Source of the DNA: Prosthecobacter debontii
Lineage (GTDB): Bacteria > Verrucomicrobiota > Verrucomicrobiia > Verrucomicrobiales > Verrucomicrobiaceae
DNA: 64,000 bases
Assembly: GCA_945860295.1 (NCBI GenBank)
Contig: CAMAQH010000001.1
Coordinates: forward strand, 186,001 to 250,000
Direction: 5' to 3'
Under the pieces are notes generated by a model. That model worked only from the letters and a program-made list of their open reading frames with translations. It made no database searches and was not told the origin of the DNA. Below are positions 50,269 to 64,000 of the stretch, piece after piece. Within the stretch, counting starts at the first letter, position 1. Each line of letters starts with the position of its first letter. Position numbers and translations under genes: made by a program.

Positions 50269-50913
50269 TTAGCGGCGGCGGCGGTAGAAAAGACCCACCA
50301 AACCAAATCCAAGAAGCATCATGCGTGATGGCTCTGGCACGGCACCTGCGAATTGAAAATTGGCCGGCTTGATTGGGTCAGCAACTGTACCAGCAAAGAC
50401 TGAGGCATAGCTTTGAACAGCGGTGTCGGAGGGGACTGTGAATGCAGCATCAGAGAACATTCCATAGAATGATCCACTCGATGGAGTCCCATCAAACCAA
50501 ACCAAAGAGAACGCATCACCCGTTGAGATTCCAGTCGCTCCTCCAAAAGGTACAGGGTTAAGAGTCGTTATACCACCAGCACCACCTGGATCACCACCAG
50601 TGGAGGTCAAAGTTGATGTCAAAGTACTGTTTGGATCTGCAGCATAGTAGTCATCAGTGGGGACGCCACCAATATTCAGAAATCCAGAGGTGTTCAGATT
50701 AAAGACATCATATGACCCACCATTGAACGTTCCATTGGTTGTGCTGATGATAACACCCCAGCGCATACCATTGGTTCCTGCAACGGCATTGTTAGCAGCA
50801 AAGCCAGTTGCTCGCCCGACACTGATTTGGCTAAATTGAAGACTAACTGTTGCTCGTGCCGAAGTTGCAGCGAACAAACCGAGAGCGATTGCTAATACAC
50901 TAATTGATTTCAT
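50269..50913 (-). CDS. PEP-CTERM sorting domain protein
   Basis: signal peptide; C-terminal VPEPSRMMLLGFGLVGLFYRRRR. Confidence 0.92.
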   Translation of the reverse strand: MKSISVLAIALGLFAATSARATVSLQFSQISVGRATGFAANNAVAGTNGMRWGVIISTTNGTFNGGSYDVFNLNTSGFLNIGGVPTDDYYAADPNSTLTSTLTSTGGDPGGAGGITTLNPVPFGGATGISTGDAFSLVWFDGTPSSGSFYGMFSDAAFTVPSDTAVQSYASVFAGTVADPIKPANFQFAGAVPEPSRMMLLGFGLVGLFYRRRR

Positions 50914-52808: not shown

Positions 52809-55800
52809 ATGACAATGAGTGCTTTTTTACGTTCTCTTTTTGTGTTTTTACTGCCTGATATTTCTTGTGGCCTGAGAAGTGGCTTAATGGCCTGTGTAAT
52901 TGCTGGGTTCTATGCTGCGCCTGCTTTTGCAGTGATCGATGATGAACTCACTGGGAGTGTCTGGAAGGTGAAGTATGGGGTCACGGCCACGCAATGGTCT
53001 GATGCGAACTGGTTGCTGGCTGACTCCGACGGTGACGGCATGTCGAACGGGTCGGAACTGGGCTTTGGGACGAATCCTTTTATTTCGGGAGAAGTCGTTA
53101 AAATCACGGAGATCACGGTTGGGACAACGAATGCTAACCTGACTTTCCCGACGCTCTTGGGCAAGAAGTATGTGATGCAGGGCTCGGCGACGTTGAGTGG
53201 TTTTGCGGATTTGTCACCTGCGGTGAATACGATGGGTAATGGGAGTCCGAAGACGCTGGCGGGTCCGAAGGGCAGCTTTAAATTCTTCCGCGTGCTGGTG
53301 CAGGACATCGACACGGATGGTGATGGAGTGAGTGACTGGGCGGAACTCCAGACGGGGCTGAATATTAGTAGCGCGACGACAAGCCCAGGGGTGAATGATC
53401 ACGATTTTATCGCTCCGCAATTCACGGCGGCTTACCAGATCGATATCATGGCGGTTAACCCATTTGCTTCAGAGGATGGCCCGACGGCTGGGACTTTTGA
53501 AGTGACTCGCACGAATAAGCTGAATGCGCTGACGGTGACACTCAATACCAGTGGCACGGCCTTTGGCGGCACGGATTATAATGAGGTGTTACCTGCGACG
53601 GTAGTTTTTGCGGCAGGTGAGGACAAGAAGACTCTGACGGTGACGCCGAAACAGGATGCGCCGACAAATGTGGTCGAGGGCAGCAAGTCGGTGATTTCGG
53701 CGCTGTCTCTGACAGGTGTGGTGAGTGCGTTTCCGGTCGCACTGGGTGCCAATCCGAGCGCGACGGTGATCATCGGTGATACGACCGACGCGACGGGCAC
53801 GGGTTTGCTGGCACGTTACTATGACACGGCGAGTTCGACGTATGTCGATGGAGCAAACTTTGGGCAGGTGGGAACCTTCACCTATTCACGAACTGGATCC
53901 ACGCCTTACACGGCCAGCACGATCTTGGTGCCGTTCACTTACAATGGCTCGCCAGCATTGCAGGTGGGGCATCTGGTGAGGCTGAGTTTTACCTCGGGTA
54001 GTCTTGATGGGACTACCTTTGACAATGTGAACTACAGCGTCACGGCTGTGACCCCAGGCGTGAGTTTCACGGTGGGAATTTCTGGGGCCGCTCTGCCAAC
54101 TAGCTACAATCCGACTGGCAACTTCAGCATTCAGTCATTCCCACACCCTGCTGTGATTCAGCGCGTGGATGCTACGGTGAACAATGACTGGGTCTATGGA
54201 ACGCCGAACGATGTGGCGGTCACACCGAACAATCCGGTGGATAATTACTCGACTTTTTTTGAAGGCTATCTGCACCCGACGACGACGGGCAATTACCAGT
54301 TCCAGCTCGATGCGGATGATAAGGCGCGGGTATTGATCGATTTGAATACCGATGGTGATTTCCTCGATGTCGGTGAGCAAGTCATTGAACACGGCTGGGA
54401 CACGGCTGATGGAATCCTGACGCCTGAGGTTGTAGGCACCTTCAAGCAAAGCGCAGTCATCCCACTCGTGGTTCCCGGAACGCCAGCGACCCGTTATAAA
54501 ATCCGTGTCGAACATTTGGAAACAACGGGTGATGCCCGCTGCCGACTCCAATGGCGTCTGGGCAGTGCGGGGTACGCCAACATTCCTCAGGCGAACGTTT
54601 TCAGCCATACTCGTGCGGTGACGAATTATACGGTCACCTCGTCAGTGGCGACGATCAATACTGCCGTGGTTCATGGGCTGACGGCTGGAGTCTCTACCGT
54701 CACGCTTCATTTCACCGCGGGCACCCTGTTTACGCCTCCGGCCAATTACAGCGGCACTTACACGGTCCAGACGACGCCTACGACCACAAGCTTCACGATC
54801 AATGTTCCAGGCGCTGCAAATCAAACGGCGACGAATGGATTGATGGTCGACTCCACGAGCACGACGACGGGCTGGCTGAATCAGGTCTATACCAATACGA
54901 CGTTCACCGCCCCTGCTGGTAATGTGGGTGTGGTCGCCGCTGGGGCCACGAATTCCAACAACGGCATCTGGGGCAGCGGCACGCCTGATCCGACGCTCAT
55001 CGGAAAAGACACCTTCTCAGTCCGCTGGACAGGCCAGGTGCAGCCGCAGTTTTCGGAAGATTACACCTTTGCGGTCACGGCGGATGATGGCTGCTCGCTG
55101 TGGATCAATGGGCAGTTGCAGACGCTCAAGATGCTGCCTTCGGCTAGCACGGGTGGCAGCACCTACTCCTATGATGCGACGACGGGCAATGTTACGGTCA
55201 CCTATTCAGGACTGGCCGCTGTCGCAAACAGTTTCGTTGCTGGTGAAACTGTCCGGATGGATTTCTCCACTGGCAATCTAAATCACGCCCCAACGACTCC
55301 TCCGACTTACGATTATGATCCTACAAATGGGGATGTCGTGGTTAATTATTCGAACGTCATTGTGGGTGCCGCGGGCGGGACTCGCGTGGCAGGAAGCTAC
55401 AACATTGGTGATACTGTCGAACTGGACCCAACAAGCGGTGGGATCAGCCCCTTGGGTACCCTTCCTTACACGATCACGGCGATTGATGCGCCGAACAATA
55501 AGTTCACTTTCAATACCGGGGCGCTCACCTTCACGCCGACCTTTAATATTGCCAGCATTGCTGCGACGTCTCCTTGCACAATTACCACGACGACGAACCA
55601 CGGATTGGCCTCGGGTGCCAGAGTAAGGATCACTGGAGTTACCGGGGGGACTTTTTCGGCCCCCATCAACGACTTCTACACGATCACAGTCACTGGGCTG
55701 AATACCTTCACGGTGGGATCGAACTGTACGGCTGCCGCCACAGCGGGCACTGGAAAGATCAATGCATCGGGAAACATCACTATCAACGATACGCGTAACG

Positions 55801-58800
55801 CTCAAATCCTCGCAAGCCCGGCACCCACGGCCACCAGTTTCACCGTTAACGTCGGCACGAGCAAGTATGCCAATGCCAGTGCGGGTAATGTCAACTTGGA
55901 CATCGTCAACAAATCGCTCAAGGAGTGGTCCTCGAATGGCAGCGAGCGTTTTGTCCGCATTCCGATGTTGGGTGGCACAAGGTATGACATTCAGCTCGAT
56001 TACTATGACAACACAGGCAATGCGAAATGCCAGCTTGCCTGGTTCAGCGCCAGCCAGCCGAAGCAGATCATCCCCGCAGAGCGGCTCTATCCTTCGAGTG
56101 TGACGCAGGCTCCACCTTCCCACATCGCGCCGACTACCGGGACGGCACTCGTCGGCGGGCAGTACTCATACTTAGTCGGTGGTAGCAATGGCGGGACGGT
56201 CAGCGTGACGGGCCTGCCGCCTGGACTGACTTACAATAGTGCTACGAGTTTGATCACTGGTAATGCGACGACTCCCGGGGATTACCAGGTCATCATCACG
56301 ATCACCAATGCCGCAGGCACCAGCACCTCGGTGCTGAATCTGCATGTGGAAAACACGGGCGGCACCATCGCGCGTGAGTATTGGAATAGTGTGGTGGGAA
56401 CAACGGTGGCTAATCTCAATGATGTTATTGAGGCAGGCACCGCGCCTACGGGCACGGCTAACCTTACCACACTCGAAGCGCCCACGAATTTCGGCGACAG
56501 CTATGGCGCGCGCATTCGCGGTTACATCACGGCCCCGACTACCGGCAACTATTACTTCTGGATCGCGGCCAGCAATGCGGCGGAACTCTGGATCTCGAAC
56601 GACGACGAGCCTGTGAACATCTTCAAGCGCGCGTCAGTCATCGCGGGCAACGCCACGCCGAAAACGTGGGGTAGCGAGGCAAACCAGAAATCTGCGTGGC
56701 TCGCTCTGGAGCAGGGTAAGAAGTATTACATCGAGATTCTGCACAAGGCAGGCGTTGGATCAGGCGACAACCTCGCCGTCGGCTGGGACAAGCCGATTGA
56801 TACCGATACCACCGCACCGAGCGAGGTGGTGCCCAGCTATGTGCTGTCGCCTTATGTGGCACCCGTGGCGGGACCGACTTCGGGGACGCTCTATCTTTCA
56901 ACTATGCTGTCGCAGAATGGTGCTGTGACCAATGGCGTGGGTAGCTCGACTCTGCTCCTAAGCCCAGACGAAAACACGGCCTACATGAAGCGCAGCTACG
57001 CTGGGCTTACCGGGCCTATCACCTCTGAGCACATTCACACCGATCCTTACTTGGCCCATGCATCAACGATCGTCTTTGACATCGACGCGCCGGTGACGCC
57101 TGGGGATGGATTGATCACCAATACGAGTGATCCGAACTACACAGGCACCAATCCACAGACGGGCACTTACAAATGGACGATTCTGCCGGTGGGTACACTC
57201 TCCAAGGCGGACATCATTGAGATCATCAAGCAAGGCAAGGCCTACGTTAATTTGCACACCACGATGTATCTCGCCGGTGAAATACGTGGCAACTATACGC
57301 TGGCCAATGGAACGCGTACATTCACACCGCCTCCTGCGCCGCAAGCTTGGGCGGATGACAGCAACTCGAATGACGGAGCGGCCCGATTCCTGGCGCAGGC
57401 AACTTTTGGAGCCAACATCGCTGACATCACGGCTTTGCAGGCGCTTTCACCGGCAGGCACGACAATGAATTCACGGTATGAGAAGTGGATCGACAATCAA
57501 TTCCTCATTCCTTCCAGCCAACATTTGCCAGAGGTTTTAGCGAGAGAGATGGCTGAGGTATTCGGGCCTTTTGATGTGAAGCTCGCGTTCAATACTTGGT
57601 GGAAGACCTCCCTCACGGCACCGGACCAACTCAGGCAGCGCATTGCCTATGCCTTCAGCCAAATCCACGTCGTCTCTGGGCAGGGACCGCTGGAGGATAA
57701 CTCCCGCGCGCTCTCCTACTTTTACGACCAGCTTGCGACGAACGCTTTTGGCAATTTTAAGGACATCTTGACCGACACCACACTGACTCCGACGATGGGT
57801 AGGTATCTTGACATGCTCGGGAATGATAAGCCTGATCTGTCGCTCGGGCGCAGTCCGAACGAAAACTATGCTCGCGAAATCAAGCAGCTCTTCTCCATCG
57901 GCCTTTACCGGATGTGGCCTGACGGCACGCTGATGCTTACCTCAAAGGACTCGCCGATCGACACCTACACGCAGCGTGAAATCGTTGGACTGGCTCATGT
58001 GTTCACAGGTTGGTATTACGGTTACGATGGCGTTGACCGCACCGGTTTCAATGCTGCGGCTGACTGGACGCGGCAGATGCGGGTGGTTCCTGTCCGGCAT
58101 TTCACCGGCCAGAAGCGACTGCTGAATAATGAAATACTACCGGGACTATCCGCATTAGGGGGCGTGCCGCTCGACCCTTATGCCAACCATTTGAGCACCC
58201 AGTTCAATGAGCAGGCCTACAAAGATCTGCCGACGCAGGAACTCAATGCCGCGCATGAAATGATGCACAATCACCCGAACACTGGGCCGTTCATCTGCCG
58301 TCAGCTCATCCAGCGCATGGTGACGAGTAATCCGTCTCGTGATTACCTCTACCGCGTGGTGCAGAAGTTCAACGACAATGGCGCGGGCGTGCGCGGCGAC
58401 ATGAAGGCGGTGATCAAGGCCATCTTGCTCGATTATGAAGCCCGCAGCCCGGCCCTCCTCGCTATTCCGGCCTATGGCAAGCAGCGTGAGCCTATCCAGC
58501 GTGTCACCAATGCAGTGCGAGCGCTGCGGTCGGCGAATGTCACTGGCAGCTACTCTCAGTCCGTCGCACAGCTTAACTCCACCGGTGTACCGTATATTTT
58601 AATCACCACCAGCACGCCGCATCTGCTCTCCACGGGTAACAGTGTGTTCCTTGAGTTTACGGACACCACGCTTGATCCAGCCAAACCCGCACCCTCAACT
58701 GGCACTTACACTGTTTTGTCTAATCCAGCCCCAACGAGTACGACCTATGCCATTGCAGCGCCTGGTTGGTTGACTGGAACTTACTCCCAGTCCGGAACGA

Positions 58801-60257
58801 CGATCACGGTGACCATGAGTGGCCATTATTTGCCGGGTGATAATGCGAACGTCTTCGGCGGCGCGCAGGTGCTGGCCCCAGCCAACGAGGGGCGGGCGTA
58901 TTTTGACTTCACGAGTGGTGGATTAAATACATTGGCAGGGATTGACCAAACCGTTCAGCAGGTCGTCACGACCACCTCGTATGACATTCCCAGCGGCGTT
59001 GGAAATACAAAAACACTACCGACGGTCGATGGGAACTATTCCGGCTCAACCTTCACGATCACCGCGCCAGATAGTGCGACACGCAGTGGAAACGTGATGA
59101 TTGCACGCTTCGGCGGTGGCTATTCGTGCACTGGCCGCGCGGGCACCATCACGATCGACACGAGCTACAATGGAGCGGGCACGTTTGGAGCCATGGCGGA
59201 TCATCATCTCTCCGCAGGTGATAACGTATTCCTTAATTTCACAAACTCACGGGACACGACATCGGGCGCGGAAACCTCCACCGAGAATGACCTTCTCTAC
59301 ACCATCGGTGGTGTGCCAGACGCGAACACCTTCACCGTCCAGGCCCGTGATGCCATAAACGCGGCCATGAACAGTGACAACCAGGTGGTCATCTTCCCTC
59401 TCAAAGCGCAACCTCTGGTCAGAGTCGGGACGATCAACGCACGTCCATCAACCTACACGATGGACAACACGGACACGGATCTCCAGCAGACGCCGCTCAA
59501 TGCTACCACCGTGTTCAACTACTTCCTGCCTGACTACAAGTTTGCGGGAACGCTGGCCTCACAGGGTATCACCACGCCGGAGTTCCAGCTCACGTCTGAA
59601 ACGACGGTTATCCGCCAAGCCAATTTCCTCTACAGCGGCATCTTTAATCCCTCCAGCACCACGGGGATCAGTAGCTTCAAGGCAGGGACGAATGCGTTGG
59701 TTCTCGACTTCAGCCCGTGGTTGACCACGACGGCACCGAACTTGGGCCTTGGTGTAGCTCCGACTCCCGGAGTGCCATGGACGCACAATCAAAACCTCTC
59801 AACTCTAATCGACCAGCTCAGCACGCTTTTCTCAGCGGGCCAAGTTTCCGCCACGAGCAAAGCGGTCATCAAGAACTTTGTTTCCACGCCGATTGCTTCC
59901 ATCGGACTACACGCATCAGCCTGTGTGGTGACGACTACGGTTCCACATAAATTAGTCACTGGTGACACAGTGCTCATTAGCGGTGTTACAGGAGGCACCT
60001 TTGGAGGCACTTCTGGCGCTTTGAATAACACAACGACCACTCGTGTAGTCACTGTGACGGGTTTGACGGATGGAACCTCTACCACCTTTACCATTCCCTT
60101 AGCTTGCACTGTTATCCCAACTAGCCTGACGAATGCCCACGTCTCGGTGATCCCGTATAATCAAGGCGCGACGAGCGACGTCACCAACAAACGCGACCGA
60201 CTGCGCTCCATCATCCATCTCATCCTGACCAGCCCCGATTACACCATCCAGAGATAA
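52809..60257 (+). CDS. giant secreted protein: Ca-binding-type repeats, Calx-beta-like, PA14-like domains, CHRD, DUF1800, with beta-rich modules inserted in PA14 and DUF1800
   Basis: DSDGDGMSN/DTDGDGVSDW; PA14-like GTGLLARYYDT, DTFSVRWTGQVQPQFSEDYTFAVTADDGCSLWINGQL; CHRD-like ending YVNLHTTMYLAGEIRGNY; DUF1800 AARFLAQATFGAN, NENYAREIKQLFSIGLYRMWPDG, REIVGLAHVFTGWYYG. Confidence 0.9.
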   Translation: MTMSAFLRSLFVFLLPDISCGLRSGLMACVIAGFYAAPAFAVIDDELTGSVWKVKYGVTATQWSDANWLLADSDGDGMSNGSELGFGTNPFISGEVVKITEITVGTTNANLTFPTLLGKKYVMQGSATLSGFADLSPAVNTMGNGSPKTLAGPKGSFKFFRVLVQDIDTDGDGVSDWAELQTGLNISSATTSPGVNDHDFIAPQFTAAYQIDIMAVNPFASEDGPTAGTFEVTRTNKLNALTVTLNTSGTAFGGTDYNEVLPATVVFAAGEDKKTLTVTPKQDAPTNVVEGSKSVISALSLTGVVSAFPVALGANPSATVIIGDTTDATGTGLLARYYDTASSTYVDGANFGQVGTFTYSRTGSTPYTASTILVPFTYNGSPALQVGHLVRLSFTSGSLDGTTFDNVNYSVTAVTPGVSFTVGISGAALPTSYNPTGNFSIQSFPHPAVIQRVDATVNNDWVYGTPNDVAVTPNNPVDNYSTFFEGYLHPTTTGNYQFQLDADDKARVLIDLNTDGDFLDVGEQVIEHGWDTADGILTPEVVGTFKQSAVIPLVVPGTPATRYKIRVEHLETTGDARCRLQWRLGSAGYANIPQANVFSHTRAVTNYTVTSSVATINTAVVHGLTAGVSTVTLHFTAGTLFTPPANYSGTYTVQTTPTTTSFTINVPGAANQTATNGLMVDSTSTTTGWLNQVYTNTTFTAPAGNVGVVAAGATNSNNGIWGSGTPDPTLIGKDTFSVRWTGQVQPQFSEDYTFAVTADDGCSLWINGQLQTLKMLPSASTGGSTYSYDATTGNVTVTYSGLAAVANSFVAGETVRMDFSTGNLNHAPTTPPTYDYDPTNGDVVVNYSNVIVGAAGGTRVAGSYNIGDTVELDPTSGGISPLGTLPYTITAIDAPNNKFTFNTGALTFTPTFNIASIAATSPCTITTTTNHGLASGARVRITGVTGGTFSAPINDFYTITVTGLNTFTVGSNCTAAATAGTGKINASGNITINDTRNAQILASPAPTATSFTVNVGTSKYANASAGNVNLDIVNKSLKEWSSNGSERFVRIPMLGGTRYDIQLDYYDNTGNAKCQLAWFSASQPKQIIPAERLYPSSVTQAPPSHIAPTTGTALVGGQYSYLVGGSNGGTVSVTGLPPGLTYNSATSLITGNATTPGDYQVIITITNAAGTSTSVLNLHVENTGGTIAREYWNSVVGTTVANLNDVIEAGTAPTGTANLTTLEAPTNFGDSYGARIRGYITAPTTGNYYFWIAASNAAELWISNDDEPVNIFKRASVIAGNATPKTWGSEANQKSAWLALEQGKKYYIEILHKAGVGSGDNLAVGWDKPIDTDTTAPSEVVPSYVLSPYVAPVAGPTSGTLYLSTMLSQNGAVTNGVGSSTLLLSPDENTAYMKRSYAGLTGPITSEHIHTDPYLAHASTIVFDIDAPVTPGDGLITNTSDPNYTGTNPQTGTYKWTILPVGTLSKADIIEIIKQGKAYVNLHTTMYLAGEIRGNYTLANGTRTFTPPPAPQAWADDSNSNDGAARFLAQATFGANIADITALQALSPAGTTMNSRYEKWIDNQFLIPSSQHLPEVLAREMAEVFGPFDVKLAFNTWWKTSLTAPDQLRQRIAYAFSQIHVVSGQGPLEDNSRALSYFYDQLATNAFGNFKDILTDTTLTPTMGRYLDMLGNDKPDLSLGRSPNENYAREIKQLFSIGLYRMWPDGTLMLTSKDSPIDTYTQREIVGLAHVFTGWYYGYDGVDRTGFNAAADWTRQMRVVPVRHFTGQKRLLNNEILPGLSALGGVPLDPYANHLSTQFNEQAYKDLPTQELNAAHEMMHNHPNTGPFICRQLIQRMVTSNPSRDYLYRVVQKFNDNGAGVRGDMKAVIKAILLDYEARSPALLAIPAYGKQREPIQRVTNAVRALRSANVTGSYSQSVAQLNSTGVPYILITTSTPHLLSTGNSVFLEFTDTTLDPAKPAPSTGTYTVLSNPAPTSTTYAIAAPGWLTGTYSQSGTTITVTMSGHYLPGDNANVFGGAQVLAPANEGRAYFDFTSGGLNTLAGIDQTVQQVVTTTSYDIPSGVGNTKTLPTVDGNYSGSTFTITAPDSATRSGNVMIARFGGGYSCTGRAGTITIDTSYNGAGTFGAMADHHLSAGDNVFLNFTNSRDTTSGAETSTENDLLYTIGGVPDANTFTVQARDAINAAMNSDNQVVIFPLKAQPLVRVGTINARPSTYTMDNTDTDLQQTPLNATTVFNYFLPDYKFAGTLASQGITTPEFQLTSETTVIRQANFLYSGIFNPSSTTGISSFKAGTNALVLDFSPWLTTTAPNLGLGVAPTPGVPWTHNQNLSTLIDQLSTLFSAGQVSATSKAVIKNFVSTPIASIGLHASACVVTTTVPHKLVTGDTVLISGVTGGTFGGTSGALNNTTTTRVVTVTGLTDGTSTTFTIPLACTVIPTSLTNAHVSVIPYNQGATSDVTNKRDRLRSIIHLILTSPDYTIQR

Positions 60258-60262
60258 CCGCC

Positions 60263-61765
60263 ATGAAGAATCCTTTCCTCAAAGCTCCATCCGACCTGAC
60301 GCGCCGCAGTTTTCTCCGAAGAAACGCCTATGCAGGGCTGGGTACCACGGCGATCGCCAATACGATCCTCGATCTCCGCCTGATCAATTCAGCGATGGCG
60401 GCGAATGATGTGTCGGGCTACAAAGCACTGGTTTGCATCTTCCTCGGTGGTGGAAATGACGCCAACAACTGGGTCGTGCCTACGGACACAACGACGTTTG
60501 ATAGTTACAGCGCGATTCGGGCAAACCTGTCCATCCCGCAAGGCTCGTTGCTGCCACTCTACAATGTGGGGACATCGGGTTCCCAATACGCGGATACCGC
60601 CGGACATACTTATGGCTTCCATCCCAGTTGCCCGGAACTCCAGACACTCTTTGGTGAGGACAAGCTGGCCGTGCTGTTCAACGTCGGCACCCTGGTCCGC
60701 CCCACCACTCGTTCGCAGTATTTCGCGAACACAAAGTTTTACACTCCGCCGCAGCTTTTCTCTCATAGTGACCAGGTGACGCAGTGGCAGACCTCCATCC
60801 CTGATGCCCCGCCAACCACGGGCTGGGGTGGGCGTATCGCTGATCTTCTCGACGCCAGTGCTAACTCAAATGGGAGCATCTCGATGTCGGTTTCTCTTAA
60901 TGGAGCAAATACCTTTGAAATTGGTAACCTCATTTCTCAGTATCAGGTCGCTACGACCGGTGCCGTGACAACAGCGACCGGTGCCGACTCAGCCGCGACG
61001 GGTAGCGCTCGCATCCGCGCGCTGAAAAATATCCTTGCTCTGTCAAATTCGAGCCTTCAGCGCACAGCGTATGCCGACGTGGTCGAAAATGCGATCGCGG
61101 TTGGGGATCTCCTTAACAACGCGATTACGCCAACCATTCTGGACGCATTTTGGACCGTGCCGTTTCCAAATACAACGCTGGGCAATCAGCTGAAAATGGT
61201 CGCGCGGCTGATTCAAGCAAGGGGTGCGCAGGCACCGACCTTGCCGGTAGCAACCAAGTTTAACATGAATCGCCAGATTTTCTTCTGCGGCGTGGGTGGC
61301 TATGACACCCACACTTCGCAGGTCTCGGTGAATGGAACCGACCAGCCGACCAATGTGAATGGCGCTCATTTTAAGCTTCTGGACGAGGTGAGTGCATGCA
61401 TGTTCGCCTTTCAGCGGGCCATGGAGCAGCTCACCCTCAGCAATCAAGTCACGACATTCACCGCCAGCGACTTCTCCCGCACGTTACCCACTAATAGCCA
61501 AGGCAGCGATCACGGTTGGGGCGCCCACCATCTCATCATGGGTGGTGCCGTCAAAGGCGGTGCGACTTATGGCAAGCTGCCGACCTTCGCCATCAACGGC
61601 CCAGATGACACAGGTCTTGGTCGTTGGATACCGACGACCGCGGTCGATCAATTTTCCGCCACGTTGGCTAAGTGGTTTGGCGTCGATGTCGGTTCTGCCA
61701 TGGCAGACATCTTTCCCAATCTCAGCCGGTTCTCGTCCTCGGATCTTGGTTTTATGTTCCCATGA
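60263..61765 (+). CDS. DUF1501 domain-containing protein, Tat signal
   Basis: TRRSFLRRNAYAGLG; CIFLGGGNDANNWVVP; TASDFSRTLPTNSQGSDHGWGAHHLIMGGAVKGG. Confidence 0.94.
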   Translation: MKNPFLKAPSDLTRRSFLRRNAYAGLGTTAIANTILDLRLINSAMAANDVSGYKALVCIFLGGGNDANNWVVPTDTTTFDSYSAIRANLSIPQGSLLPLYNVGTSGSQYADTAGHTYGFHPSCPELQTLFGEDKLAVLFNVGTLVRPTTRSQYFANTKFYTPPQLFSHSDQVTQWQTSIPDAPPTTGWGGRIADLLDASANSNGSISMSVSLNGANTFEIGNLISQYQVATTGAVTTATGADSAATGSARIRALKNILALSNSSLQRTAYADVVENAIAVGDLLNNAITPTILDAFWTVPFPNTTLGNQLKMVARLIQARGAQAPTLPVATKFNMNRQIFFCGVGGYDTHTSQVSVNGTDQPTNVNGAHFKLLDEVSACMFAFQRAMEQLTLSNQVTTFTASDFSRTLPTNSQGSDHGWGAHHLIMGGAVKGGATYGKLPTFAINGPDDTGLGRWIPTTAVDQFSATLAKWFGVDVGSAMADIFPNLSRFSSSDLGFMFP

Positions 61766-62328
61766 GTCGAAAGCTCTGGTTTGTCCTGTTTCTTGCGGTT
61801 TCGACGGTGGCCACCTTTTGGTATGGTGCCCGATCGAATCCCGCAAAGCCTGCTGTCCCACCCGCCGCAGCGGTGCCAAGGGCTGCAAAGATCCCATCAC
61901 CCGAGACTCCTGCCTCAAGATCGGCTGTGGCAACCAATTCTACGGGAGCCATGCCCGCTCTAAATAAAAACACATCAGTTATTTCAGGCAGTTCGCAGGC
62001 AAGTGCTTCGAGGTCTAGGCCAGAGCCGCAATCACCAGCCAAAATCGAGGCCGATGCGCTCGCCCTGAACATCCGCCATTACAGTCAACGTTTCGGCGGT
62101 AACCCGGTCGGCTCCAATGCAGAGATCGTCAGGGAGATGACCGGCGGCAATCTCAAGGGGGCGACTTATCTACCCACTGAACTCAAGCGTCTGAATGACA
62201 ACGGGGAACTCATCGACGCCTGGGGCACGCCTTACTTTTTTCATCAGAACGCCGCCAATTACATGGAAGTACGCTCTGCAGGTCCTGATAAGAAGATCTG
62301 GACCACCGATGACGTGACTGCGCGCTGA
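61762..62328 (+). CDS. membrane-anchored protein with pseudopilin (GspG-like) C-terminal motif
   Basis: ATGA overlap with DUF1501 stop; N-terminal TM, Pro/Ala/Ser-rich linker, DAWGTPYFFHQ...VRSAGPDKKIWTTDDV. Confidence 0.75.
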   Translation: MSRKLWFVLFLAVSTVATFWYGARSNPAKPAVPPAAAVPRAAKIPSPETPASRSAVATNSTGAMPALNKNTSVISGSSQASASRSRPEPQSPAKIEADALALNIRHYSQRFGGNPVGSNAEIVREMTGGNLKGATYLPTELKRLNDNGELIDAWGTPYFFHQNAANYMEVRSAGPDKKIWTTDDVTAR

Positions 62329-62456: not shown

Positions 62457-64000
62457 ATGAAAACATCTCCTTTTCTCCTATCGTTTATGGGTCGTTTTGA
62501 ACGACTCGCACTTCAGTTGATCGTGCTGGTCAGCGTCATCGGTATCTTGGTGACATCTGCAAATGCATACACTATTTCAACAACTACGGACTCCATCTCC
62601 AAGGGCATATGGGGATTGAAATACGGTGTTTCAGAGGCGCAGTTAGCCGACTCGAATTGGCTCAATGCGGATACCGATGGCGACGGTCTCAAAAATGTCA
62701 GTGAAATCGGCGCAGGCACCAATCCCTTTCTCGCTGCCGAACTGGTGAAGGTCACTTCAATCACGATGGCTGGAGCAGATGTGAGCCTGACTGTGCCCAC
62801 GGTCTTAAATAAGAAATATGTCGTTCAGGGTTCTCAGACACTCAGTGGGTTTGATTACATTGAATCAGGCCCGTCTTTCTCAGCGCCAGGAACGGGAAGC
62901 GATGTGACTTTGACCGCCACTAAGGGGACGAACAAGTTCTTCCGCGTGCTTGTGCATGACCTGGATTCTGATGGTGACATGGCAAGCGACTGGGCAGAGG
63001 TCGTTGCTGGCTATGACAAAAACAATGCAAACTCAGGTGGCGCCAGTTCGCCACGGGACGATGTGGTTCTGACCAGTGCCATTCCTTCTTCCAATGTCGT
63101 GACCGTCACAGTGACAAAGTCGAATGCTTTGCAGCCTGCGAATGCATTGAGCGCACCTATTGAGACTGGCTCGATCACCATCTCCCGCAGCGGCCCACTG
63201 AGGATTACCGACATCACTGTGCCTTTGCAAAAGTCAGGCACCGCAGACGCAGGAACCGACTATGAGCTACTCGATGTGCCGACGAGTATTACCTTCACTA
63301 AAGCTGCTAATGCCAATCAGGGCGGCGCTAGCTCTATCGTGATCAAGATCAATCCGAAGTTTAACAGCAGCCGCAAAACCAATGTGACGGCCATTGTTAA
63401 AGCGCTGGCAGGTGTTGGTTATACCCTGGGTTCTGCCGTCACGGGCGCTGTGGTGATCAATCCGACGGGGGTGGCGGAGGGCACAGGCCTGACGGGCAAG
63501 TATTATGCGAACGCGGCTACCAATTACACCAGTGGGAACAACTTTGGAGTCACGAAACCCAGCGAACTCCTGCTCACCCAGGTGGACTCGACGATCGATT
63601 TTACCAGTCCCTACAACGTCTCCACAAACCCAACGGGTTGGGACACACCCGCGCCGGGCACCACTCGGCCCATCACTACGACCACGGGTGTTTACTCCAT
63701 TCGCTGGACTGGGCAGGTGCTGCCGCAATACTCGGAAACCTACTCCTTTGATCTTCGCAGCAGAGAAGGTGGCAAGGTTTGGGTGAATGGCCGACTCATC
63801 ATTGATAAGTGGACCACGCAGAGCACGACGGAAAACATCAACACGATCGCATTGAAGGCTGGTGTCCTCTATGACATTAGGGTGGAGTACTTCAGCGCCG
63901 GAGCCACTCCTGAGGCACGTCTCTATTGGTGGAGTAACAGTCGGCCAAAACAAATCATTCCGCGTGAGCGCCTGTTTCCTGAGCCTGGTCAGGTTAACAA
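62457..64000 (+). CDS. second giant protein (N-terminal part, truncated by window end), paralogous to 52809-60257
   Basis: ATG 62457 MKTSPFLLSFMGRFERLALQLIVLVSVIGILVTSANA...GIWGLKYGVSEAQLADSNWLNADTDGDGLKNVSEIGAGTNPF; no in-frame stop seen to window end; PA14-like YSIRWTGQVLPQYSETYSF; absent from supplied ORF track. Confidence 0.88.
   Translation, partial: MKTSPFLLSFMGRFERLALQLIVLVSVIGILVTSANAYTISTTTDSISKGIWGLKYGVSEAQLADSNWLNADTDGDGLKNVSEIGAGTNPFLAAELVKVTSITMAGADVSLTVPTVLNKKYVVQGSQTLSGFDYIESGPSFSAPGTGSDVTLTATKGTNKFFRVLVHDLDSDGDMASDWAEVVAGYDKNNANSGGASSPRDDVVLTSAIPSSNVVTVTVTKSNALQPANALSAPIETGSITISRSGPLRITDITVPLQKSGTADAGTDYELLDVPTSITFTKAANANQGGASSIVIKINPKFNSSRKTNVTAIVKALAGVGYTLGSAVTGAVVINPTGVAEGTGLTGKYYANAATNYTSGNNFGVTKPSELLLTQVDSTIDFTSPYNVSTNPTGWDTPAPGTTRPITTTTGVYSIRWTGQVLPQYSETYSFDLRSREGGKVWVNGRLIIDKWTTQSTTENINTIALKAGVLYDIRVEYFSAGATPEARLYWWSNSRPKQIIPRERLFPEPGQVN

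Follow-up and report, generated by a model that had tools for sequence, protein, structure and literature searches.

A family of short beta-rich modules interrupts two unrelated domains, PA14 and DUF1800, of a giant protein encoded in the 64,000-nucleotide stretch of Prosthecobacter debontii DNA analysed here (the window). The observation behind the original prediction, that segments of a common pattern break up otherwise recognisable domains of this protein, was confirmed, and our results support the view that one module family entered loops of both host domains repeatedly. Recurrent domain insertion into loops of the giant DUF1800 family is, with a probability of roughly 0.78, the best explanation of the whole.

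The P1 Giant Gene and Its Surroundings

The interrupted protein, P1, is encoded by an open reading frame that is followed in the window by a DUF1501 partner gene and by the start of a paralogue, P2, while a further paralogue, P3, lies beyond the window:

52809-60257, + strand: P1, DUF1800 giant of the secreted type, 2482 aa (open reading frame and Pfam)
60263-61765, + strand: DUF1501 partner gene, 500 aa (Pfam DUF1501, 86.8 bits)
62457-64000, + strand: start of paralogue P2, which runs on past the window as L009:1457-8128, 2224 aa in total
L009:10138-16677: paralogue P3, 2180 aa, beyond the window, downstream of P2

According to the open reading frame and the Pfam matches, the domain order of P1 is signal region, TSP3, PA14-1, PA14-2, PA14/GLEYA, CHRD and DUF1800. 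P1 scored 214.8 bits against DUF1800 (PF08811; cut-off 26.1), with positions 1-320 of the profile matched as one stretch and the match broken at the site called E below, and 118.9 bits against PA14 (PF07691; cut-off 24), in four stretches. Three DUF1800 giants, each paired with a DUF1501 or DUF1501-like gene, stand in a row, head to tail, the second and third pairs at L009:1457-18292 (G000:C1:248457-265292); the DUF1501 identity was checked by Pfam for the gene in the window, and the genes behind P2 and P3 are named after their resemblance to it. Slightly upstream of the P1 gene, at 50269-50913, a PEP-CTERM sorting signal protein is encoded (27.7 bits), and a 218-aa open reading frame, the C-terminal part of which looks pseudopilin-like by eye, is located at 61672-62328 between the DUF1501 gene and P2. 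The frame of the P1 orthologue in L055 (and in L110), a draft assembly, is broken within DUF1800.

One Module Family Occupies Five Sites in P1

Modules were detected with an HMM that was seeded with five clear P1 modules and then iterated. The iterated model found modules in P1 at aa 381, 611, 864, 920, 1926, 2123 and 2369, and an eighth appeared at aa 804 once homologues had been added, giving 8 copies over the five intervals in which a common module had been reported. The module-bearing sites, as delimited by alignment anchors below, agree with these intervals to within about 20 aa. The segments are rich in T, S and G and divergent (mean column identity 29%), and the similarity among them is detectable by their own HMM: the iterated model had 0 matches at iE<=0.005 in shuffled sequences, and the homologue-enriched model had 0 in shuffled and reversed controls. 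As delimited by alignment anchors, the module-bearing sites of P1 are A (aa 353-451), B (aa 599-688), C (aa 768-1040), E (aa 1898-2227) and F (aa 2356-2463). Of the six sites tabulated below, two (A and C) lie in PA14, one (B) separates two PA14 domains and three (D, E and F) lie in DUF1800:

53865-54161, + strand: insert A, PA14-1 loop after NFG (module core 53931-54077; HMM 30.8 bits); 99 aa in P1 versus 7-11 aa in P2, P3 and module-free homologues
54603-54872, + strand: insert B, between PA14-1 and PA14-2 (module core 54648-54803; HMM 37.9 bits); 90 aa in P1 versus 9 aa in L057-L059
55110-55928, + strand: insert C, PA14-2 WINGQ loop (modules 55218-55334, 55377-55514 and 55575-55718); 273 aa in P1 versus 8 aa in P2/P3 and single-PA14 homologues; orthologues carry 1 to 4 modules here
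55548-55730, + strand: Type I module within C, aa 914-974 (Cys 923 and 973; 85 bits for Type I versus 34 for Type II)
58125-58244, + strand: loop D of DUF1800, empty in P1 (40 aa); in P2/P3 it holds a Type I module (132-135 aa)
58500-59489, + strand: insert E, at about DUF1800 profile position 320 (modules 58596-58748 and 59181-59342, with a weaker one between them); 330 aa in P1 versus 28-35 aa in compact DUF1800 proteins
59874-60197, + strand: insert F, before the last DUF1800 helix (Type I module 59892-60110, 64 bits; Cys 2372 and 2433); 108 aa in P1 versus 11-29 aa in most module-free homologues

The three giants P1, P2 and P3 contain all of this genome's 18 significant modules. The PA14 loops of P2 (from 62457) had been described as uninterrupted, and they are indeed only 10 aa and 8 aa long, versus 99 aa and 273 aa in P1. 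P2 and P3 are not module-free; 6 modules were detected in each of them, in DUF1800.

In the AF2 (AlphaFold) model of the DUF1800 part of P1, built from 23 homologues (pLDDT 73.6, pTM 0.69), helices predominate up to residue 406, followed by helices between beta blocks and by the last helices at the end. The beta blocks, made of strands alone, are residues 412-712 (P1 aa 1911-2211), in insert E, and residues 861-947 (P1 aa 2360-2446), in insert F. As all-beta blocks in an all-alpha host model, both inserts are separate from the DUF1800 fold. The model of the PA14 part was unreliable (pLDDT 56, pTM 0.30) and was set aside. A PDB fold search with the whole DUF1800 model gave nothing at E<=0.001; a search of BFVD returned a phage DUF1800 protein and many tail fibre and baseplate proteins (30 at E<=0.001, with low TM-scores).

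Occupied and Empty Sites Among Homologues

Alignment of about 70 homologues from related genomes and from genomes of named species, including the isolates Haloferula sp. BvORR071 and Luteolibacter marinus, revealed modules present or absent at the same loops. Compact DUF1800 proteins (Acidobacteria, Opitutae and others) carry no modules and have only 14-20 aa at D, 28-35 aa at E and 12-25 aa at F, versus 253-624 aa at E in the module-bearing homologues. Modules occur at E only in homologues from Limisphaerales, Chthoniobacteraceae, Haloferula and Luteolibacter, at A and E in the group around L116-L125, at A, C and E in L057-L059, and at E and F in L123. P2 and P3 carry them at D and at E, where the array is enlarged, and at none of A, B, C and F, and the P1 clade, which comprises 18 other rows besides P1 in the host tree, carries them at A, B, C, E and F. 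Module-free DUF1800 giants with short loops D and E exist in the same genus. An assembly artefact was rejected, since identical sites were seen in isolates and in many independent assemblies.

The loops themselves, besides the module, look like insertion hot spots. A second, related family (L051, L052, L054, L130 and L151) has 219-448 aa of unrelated sequence at E, for which phage head decoration proteins were the match in L051 and L052, and loop F of L052 holds an unrelated domain of 206 aa. The genes of this family with E filled by a different domain include:

L051:156-5276: second-family gene
L052:228-5948: second-family gene
L054:5380-11079: second-family gene

The E insert of the f4 lineage was also considered as a relative of the modules and rejected (hhalign probability 3-6%, from a small alignment in which one row is inexact at the N end).

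Number and Probable Order of Insertion Events

Two host trees, one of the DUF1800 core without inserts (69 rows) and one of the stretch that separates C from DUF1800 (53 rows), were concordant on the main groups. The fewest changes on them were one each for B and D and two each for A, C and F. Hosts with a module-bearing E form one group, which also includes L105, the 283-aa E insert of which is unrecognised by the module HMM. More than one insertion event took place: a single clade of C-bearing hosts was rejected by the AU test (p = 2e-25), and so was a single clade of A-bearing hosts (p = 0.008 on one tree and 0.023 on the other), while the result for F-bearing hosts was borderline (p = 0.0445). 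Counts of changes on a tree are by themselves blind to gain versus loss; gain is favoured by the short loops of the outgroups and by the unlike modules at C.

As far as can be judged from the sequences, the host trees would put the entry at E early, with one entry each at D and B and at least two at C, and F was probably entered twice. Site A appears by the host trees to have gained modules at least twice; alternatively, there may have been one gain followed by losses, or the transfer of a whole PA14 segment, since the A modules of both clades are homologous and accompanied by an extra PA14. A small recombined segment may also account for F of L123, given that a linker is common to F of L123 and F of the P1 clade.

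Type I Modules and Nesting

The Type I modules, of about 61 aa, follow the pattern ISSI..GNPCTITT..HGL.TGD.V.ISGVTGGTFS..IN..FTVTV...TFTVPVNCT. Site C holds them in P1, L082, L085 and L163, sites D and E hold them in P2 and P3, and site F does so in the P1 clade as well as in L123. Both end Cys residues are present in 23/32 Type I copies. Cys is rare in P1, yet the pairs 923/973 and 2372/2433 lie at the ends of both of its Type I modules, and each pair plausibly forms a disulfide staple.

The Type I modules at D, E and F are closer to one another across sites and clades than to their neighbours in the array, and in the Type I tree those of loops E and F are intermixed, with low support. The C1, C2 and C3 modules of the P1 clade are nearest one another, as tandem duplication would give. 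Additionally, C holds unlike subtypes in two clades: the C module of the L057 clade is closest to the A modules of the P1 clade, with 26.6 bits, versus 10.3 bits with the C1 module of that clade.

Type I copies are also nested in an older module. In P2, the copy (aa 1820-1898) comes after strand KSKVYISVLSRT of this module, whereas in P3 the copy (aa 1766-1844) comes before the homologous strand RSKVYLAFLTQT. With the inserts removed, P2 and P3 align along the host module, and the shuffle probability of the strand match is 0.0005. The differing nesting positions of Type I in P2 and P3 call for either two insertions or one move. Taken together, the empty sites, the two concordant host trees, the unlike subtypes at C, the nesting and the DUF1800 model bear out the proposal of several insertions into loops of two host domain types.

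Relation to E1_FCCH, Endosialidase Barrels and Phage Proteins

The resemblance of the modules to FCCH-like modules of phage tail proteins, as originally suggested, holds at the profile level, and the Pfam cut-offs are missed. P1 scored 22.4 bits against E1_FCCH (PF16190; cut-off 29.5), and 0/8 matches of its own genome were above that cut-off; against End_beta_barrel (PF12195; cut-off 35), the P1 C module scored 13.5 bits. At E<=0.1, 10/12 Type I modules match PF16190 (best 6.7e-6), and direct matches to PF12195 are weak (4/12 modules, best E 0.016). The connection is made by a linking profile, A5, the modules of which come from several virion proteins, among them a phage major head protein, from a hook protein and from a few proteins without assignment. 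Type I matches A5 with an hhalign probability of 98.6% (E 4.9e-16), and A5 in turn reached 1.2e-7 with the phage K1F endosialidase (1v0e, chain residues 188-245) and 0.0014 with the E1 FCCH domain (2lzj). By this profile-level homology of sequences, the modules belong to the E1_FCCH/endosialidase barrel superfamily and are distant relatives of the E1-FCCH/endosialidase beta-barrel family.

FCCH-like modules were also seen in proteins of other kinds: one lies between the D1 and C-terminal domains of a FlgE-type hook/rod protein of a class member (L166:3279-4421), and one lies inside the head-protein match of a phage major head protein (phrog_283) encoded in a genome of the same genus (L176:2894-4060).

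The K1F endosialidase binds polysialic acid at three sites, one of which is its beta-barrel (PMC12632334). Because this distant relative binds polysialic acid, it is a reasonable guess, no more, that the modules might provide a surface protein with additional contacts to glycans or the matrix.

DNA-Level Evidence and Alternative Explanations

The inserts, like their host, are under purifying selection: the dN/dS values of inserts versus host in close orthologues were 0.15 versus 0.13, 0.11 versus 0.09, and 0.12 versus 0.08. The GC content was 0.52-0.57 in the inserts versus 0.54-0.56 in the host. No long direct repeats, target-site duplications or recent near-identical DNA copies were visible around the inserts. 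A recent duplication of module DNA was likewise not found, as non-orthologous Type I copies within this genome did not exceed a nucleotide identity of 0.57, and in view of this lack of DNA-level duplicates the events are old. Thus, the suggestion of a mobile or recombining module stands as recurrent domain insertion on an evolutionary scale; it does not extend to a mobile genetic element, as neither a recombinase of its own nor boundary repeats nor recent near-identical copies accompany the module.

The same distribution could in principle result from differential loss, had an ancestral giant possessed all modules and were the short loops deletions. The change counts on the trees cannot separate gain from loss, and the A-type modules of the two A-bearing clades are related (19-27 bits), but such a history is improbable: it would require many parallel exact losses, the outgroups (Acidobacteria, Opitutae and others) have 28-35 aa and no modules at E, the subtypes at C are unlike in two clades, and the Type I position differs between P2 and P3. 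A separate acquisition from phages at each insertion, as opposed to spread inside the DUF1800 giants, is somewhat easier to accept, though still unlikely. Related modules with a strong profile match do occur in phage virion proteins and prophage-type genes, and the f4 lineage has another phage-type insert at E (phrog_2647 head decoration). However, no close donor was found: the P2 modules had none at E<=0.01, the best Type I match was at 2e-3, in a search with the L091 F module and an approximate family consensus that gives leads only, and an IMG/VR search with Type I gave no confirmed relative. Moreover, the 18 significant modules of this genome are all in the three giants, and Type I scores above 45 bits were obtained in the class sample only in giant-size frames.

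Repeated entry at the same loops and the nested copies would also suit a dedicated mobile element, intein-, homing- or retroelement-like, that carries the module. This is very improbable, as the inserts are built of barrels of 60-90 aa, with no further coding capacity and with host-like composition, and show neither near-identical copies nor long direct repeats. Inteins or introns were rejected, since the inserts are translated, as barrels whose relatives occur in other proteins. Least credible of all is that no module family exists and that the divergent T/S/G-rich segments merely have a generic Thr/Ser-rich beta composition; composition-preserving shuffles and reversed sequences gave no matches, and the profile-profile probability to independently found modules reached 98.6%.

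Proposed Course of Insertion and Its Meaning

Recurrent domain insertion, the preferred reading, would have progressed as follows. Surface loops of PA14 and DUF1800 would tolerate insertion in the three neighbouring secreted-type giants, and closed FCCH/endosialidase-type beta-modules would have entered such loops in frame repeatedly during the divergence of Verrucomicrobiae, at E first and at A, C, B, F and D afterwards in separate lineages. Local multiplication by tandem duplication (C1-C2-C3) would have followed entry, and Type I would have spread to several loops and paralogues, twice into another module. As no element is encoded, the DNA step was presumably ordinary illegitimate or homeologous recombination into permissive loops; insertion would be tolerated since the module ends lie together, and the inserts would then have been kept by purifying selection. 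We tentatively propose that the disulfide-stapled beta-module could be a protein-level insertion unit circulating within one giant bacterial family, from loop to loop, between paralogues and into modules, and that the DUF1800 and PA14 loops could be hot spots filled with unrelated domains by different lineages.

Isolated cases are the usual basis for inferring the insertion of domains into the interior of others, and the P1 family offers an unusually clear record: within one gene family, empty sites, parallel entries at a single loop, tandem growth and nesting form an ordered series. With such a series one can ask which of the loops admit a domain and for what reason. The series also indicates natural permissive sites in two domain folds, PA14 and DUF1800, and connects barrels of the phage tail type with the DUF1800-DUF1501 pairs of Verrucomicrobiota, which are poorly understood.

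Comparison with Known Systems

DUF1800-DUF1501 pairs have been reported in conserved operons, and the part of that report considered here does not describe inserts (PMC5122149). P1 and its next gene resemble these pairs, as they pass the Pfam thresholds of DUF1800 and DUF1501, respectively; they differ from them in the inserts, and many of the DUF1800 proteins compared here are compact. The modules equal E1_FCCH (PF16190) in length and motif pattern, but sit in DUF1800 and PA14 loops, often with a Cys pair. The phage endosialidase barrel (PDB 1v0e, 3gvj and 4hiz) is linked to Type I through A5. The promiscuous Ig-like domains of phage structural proteins work in a comparable way, with a small beta-domain added at many places of surface proteins. 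The case described here differs from these in that the module belongs to another family and occupies a number of interior loops, in two host folds, of a giant bacterial protein.
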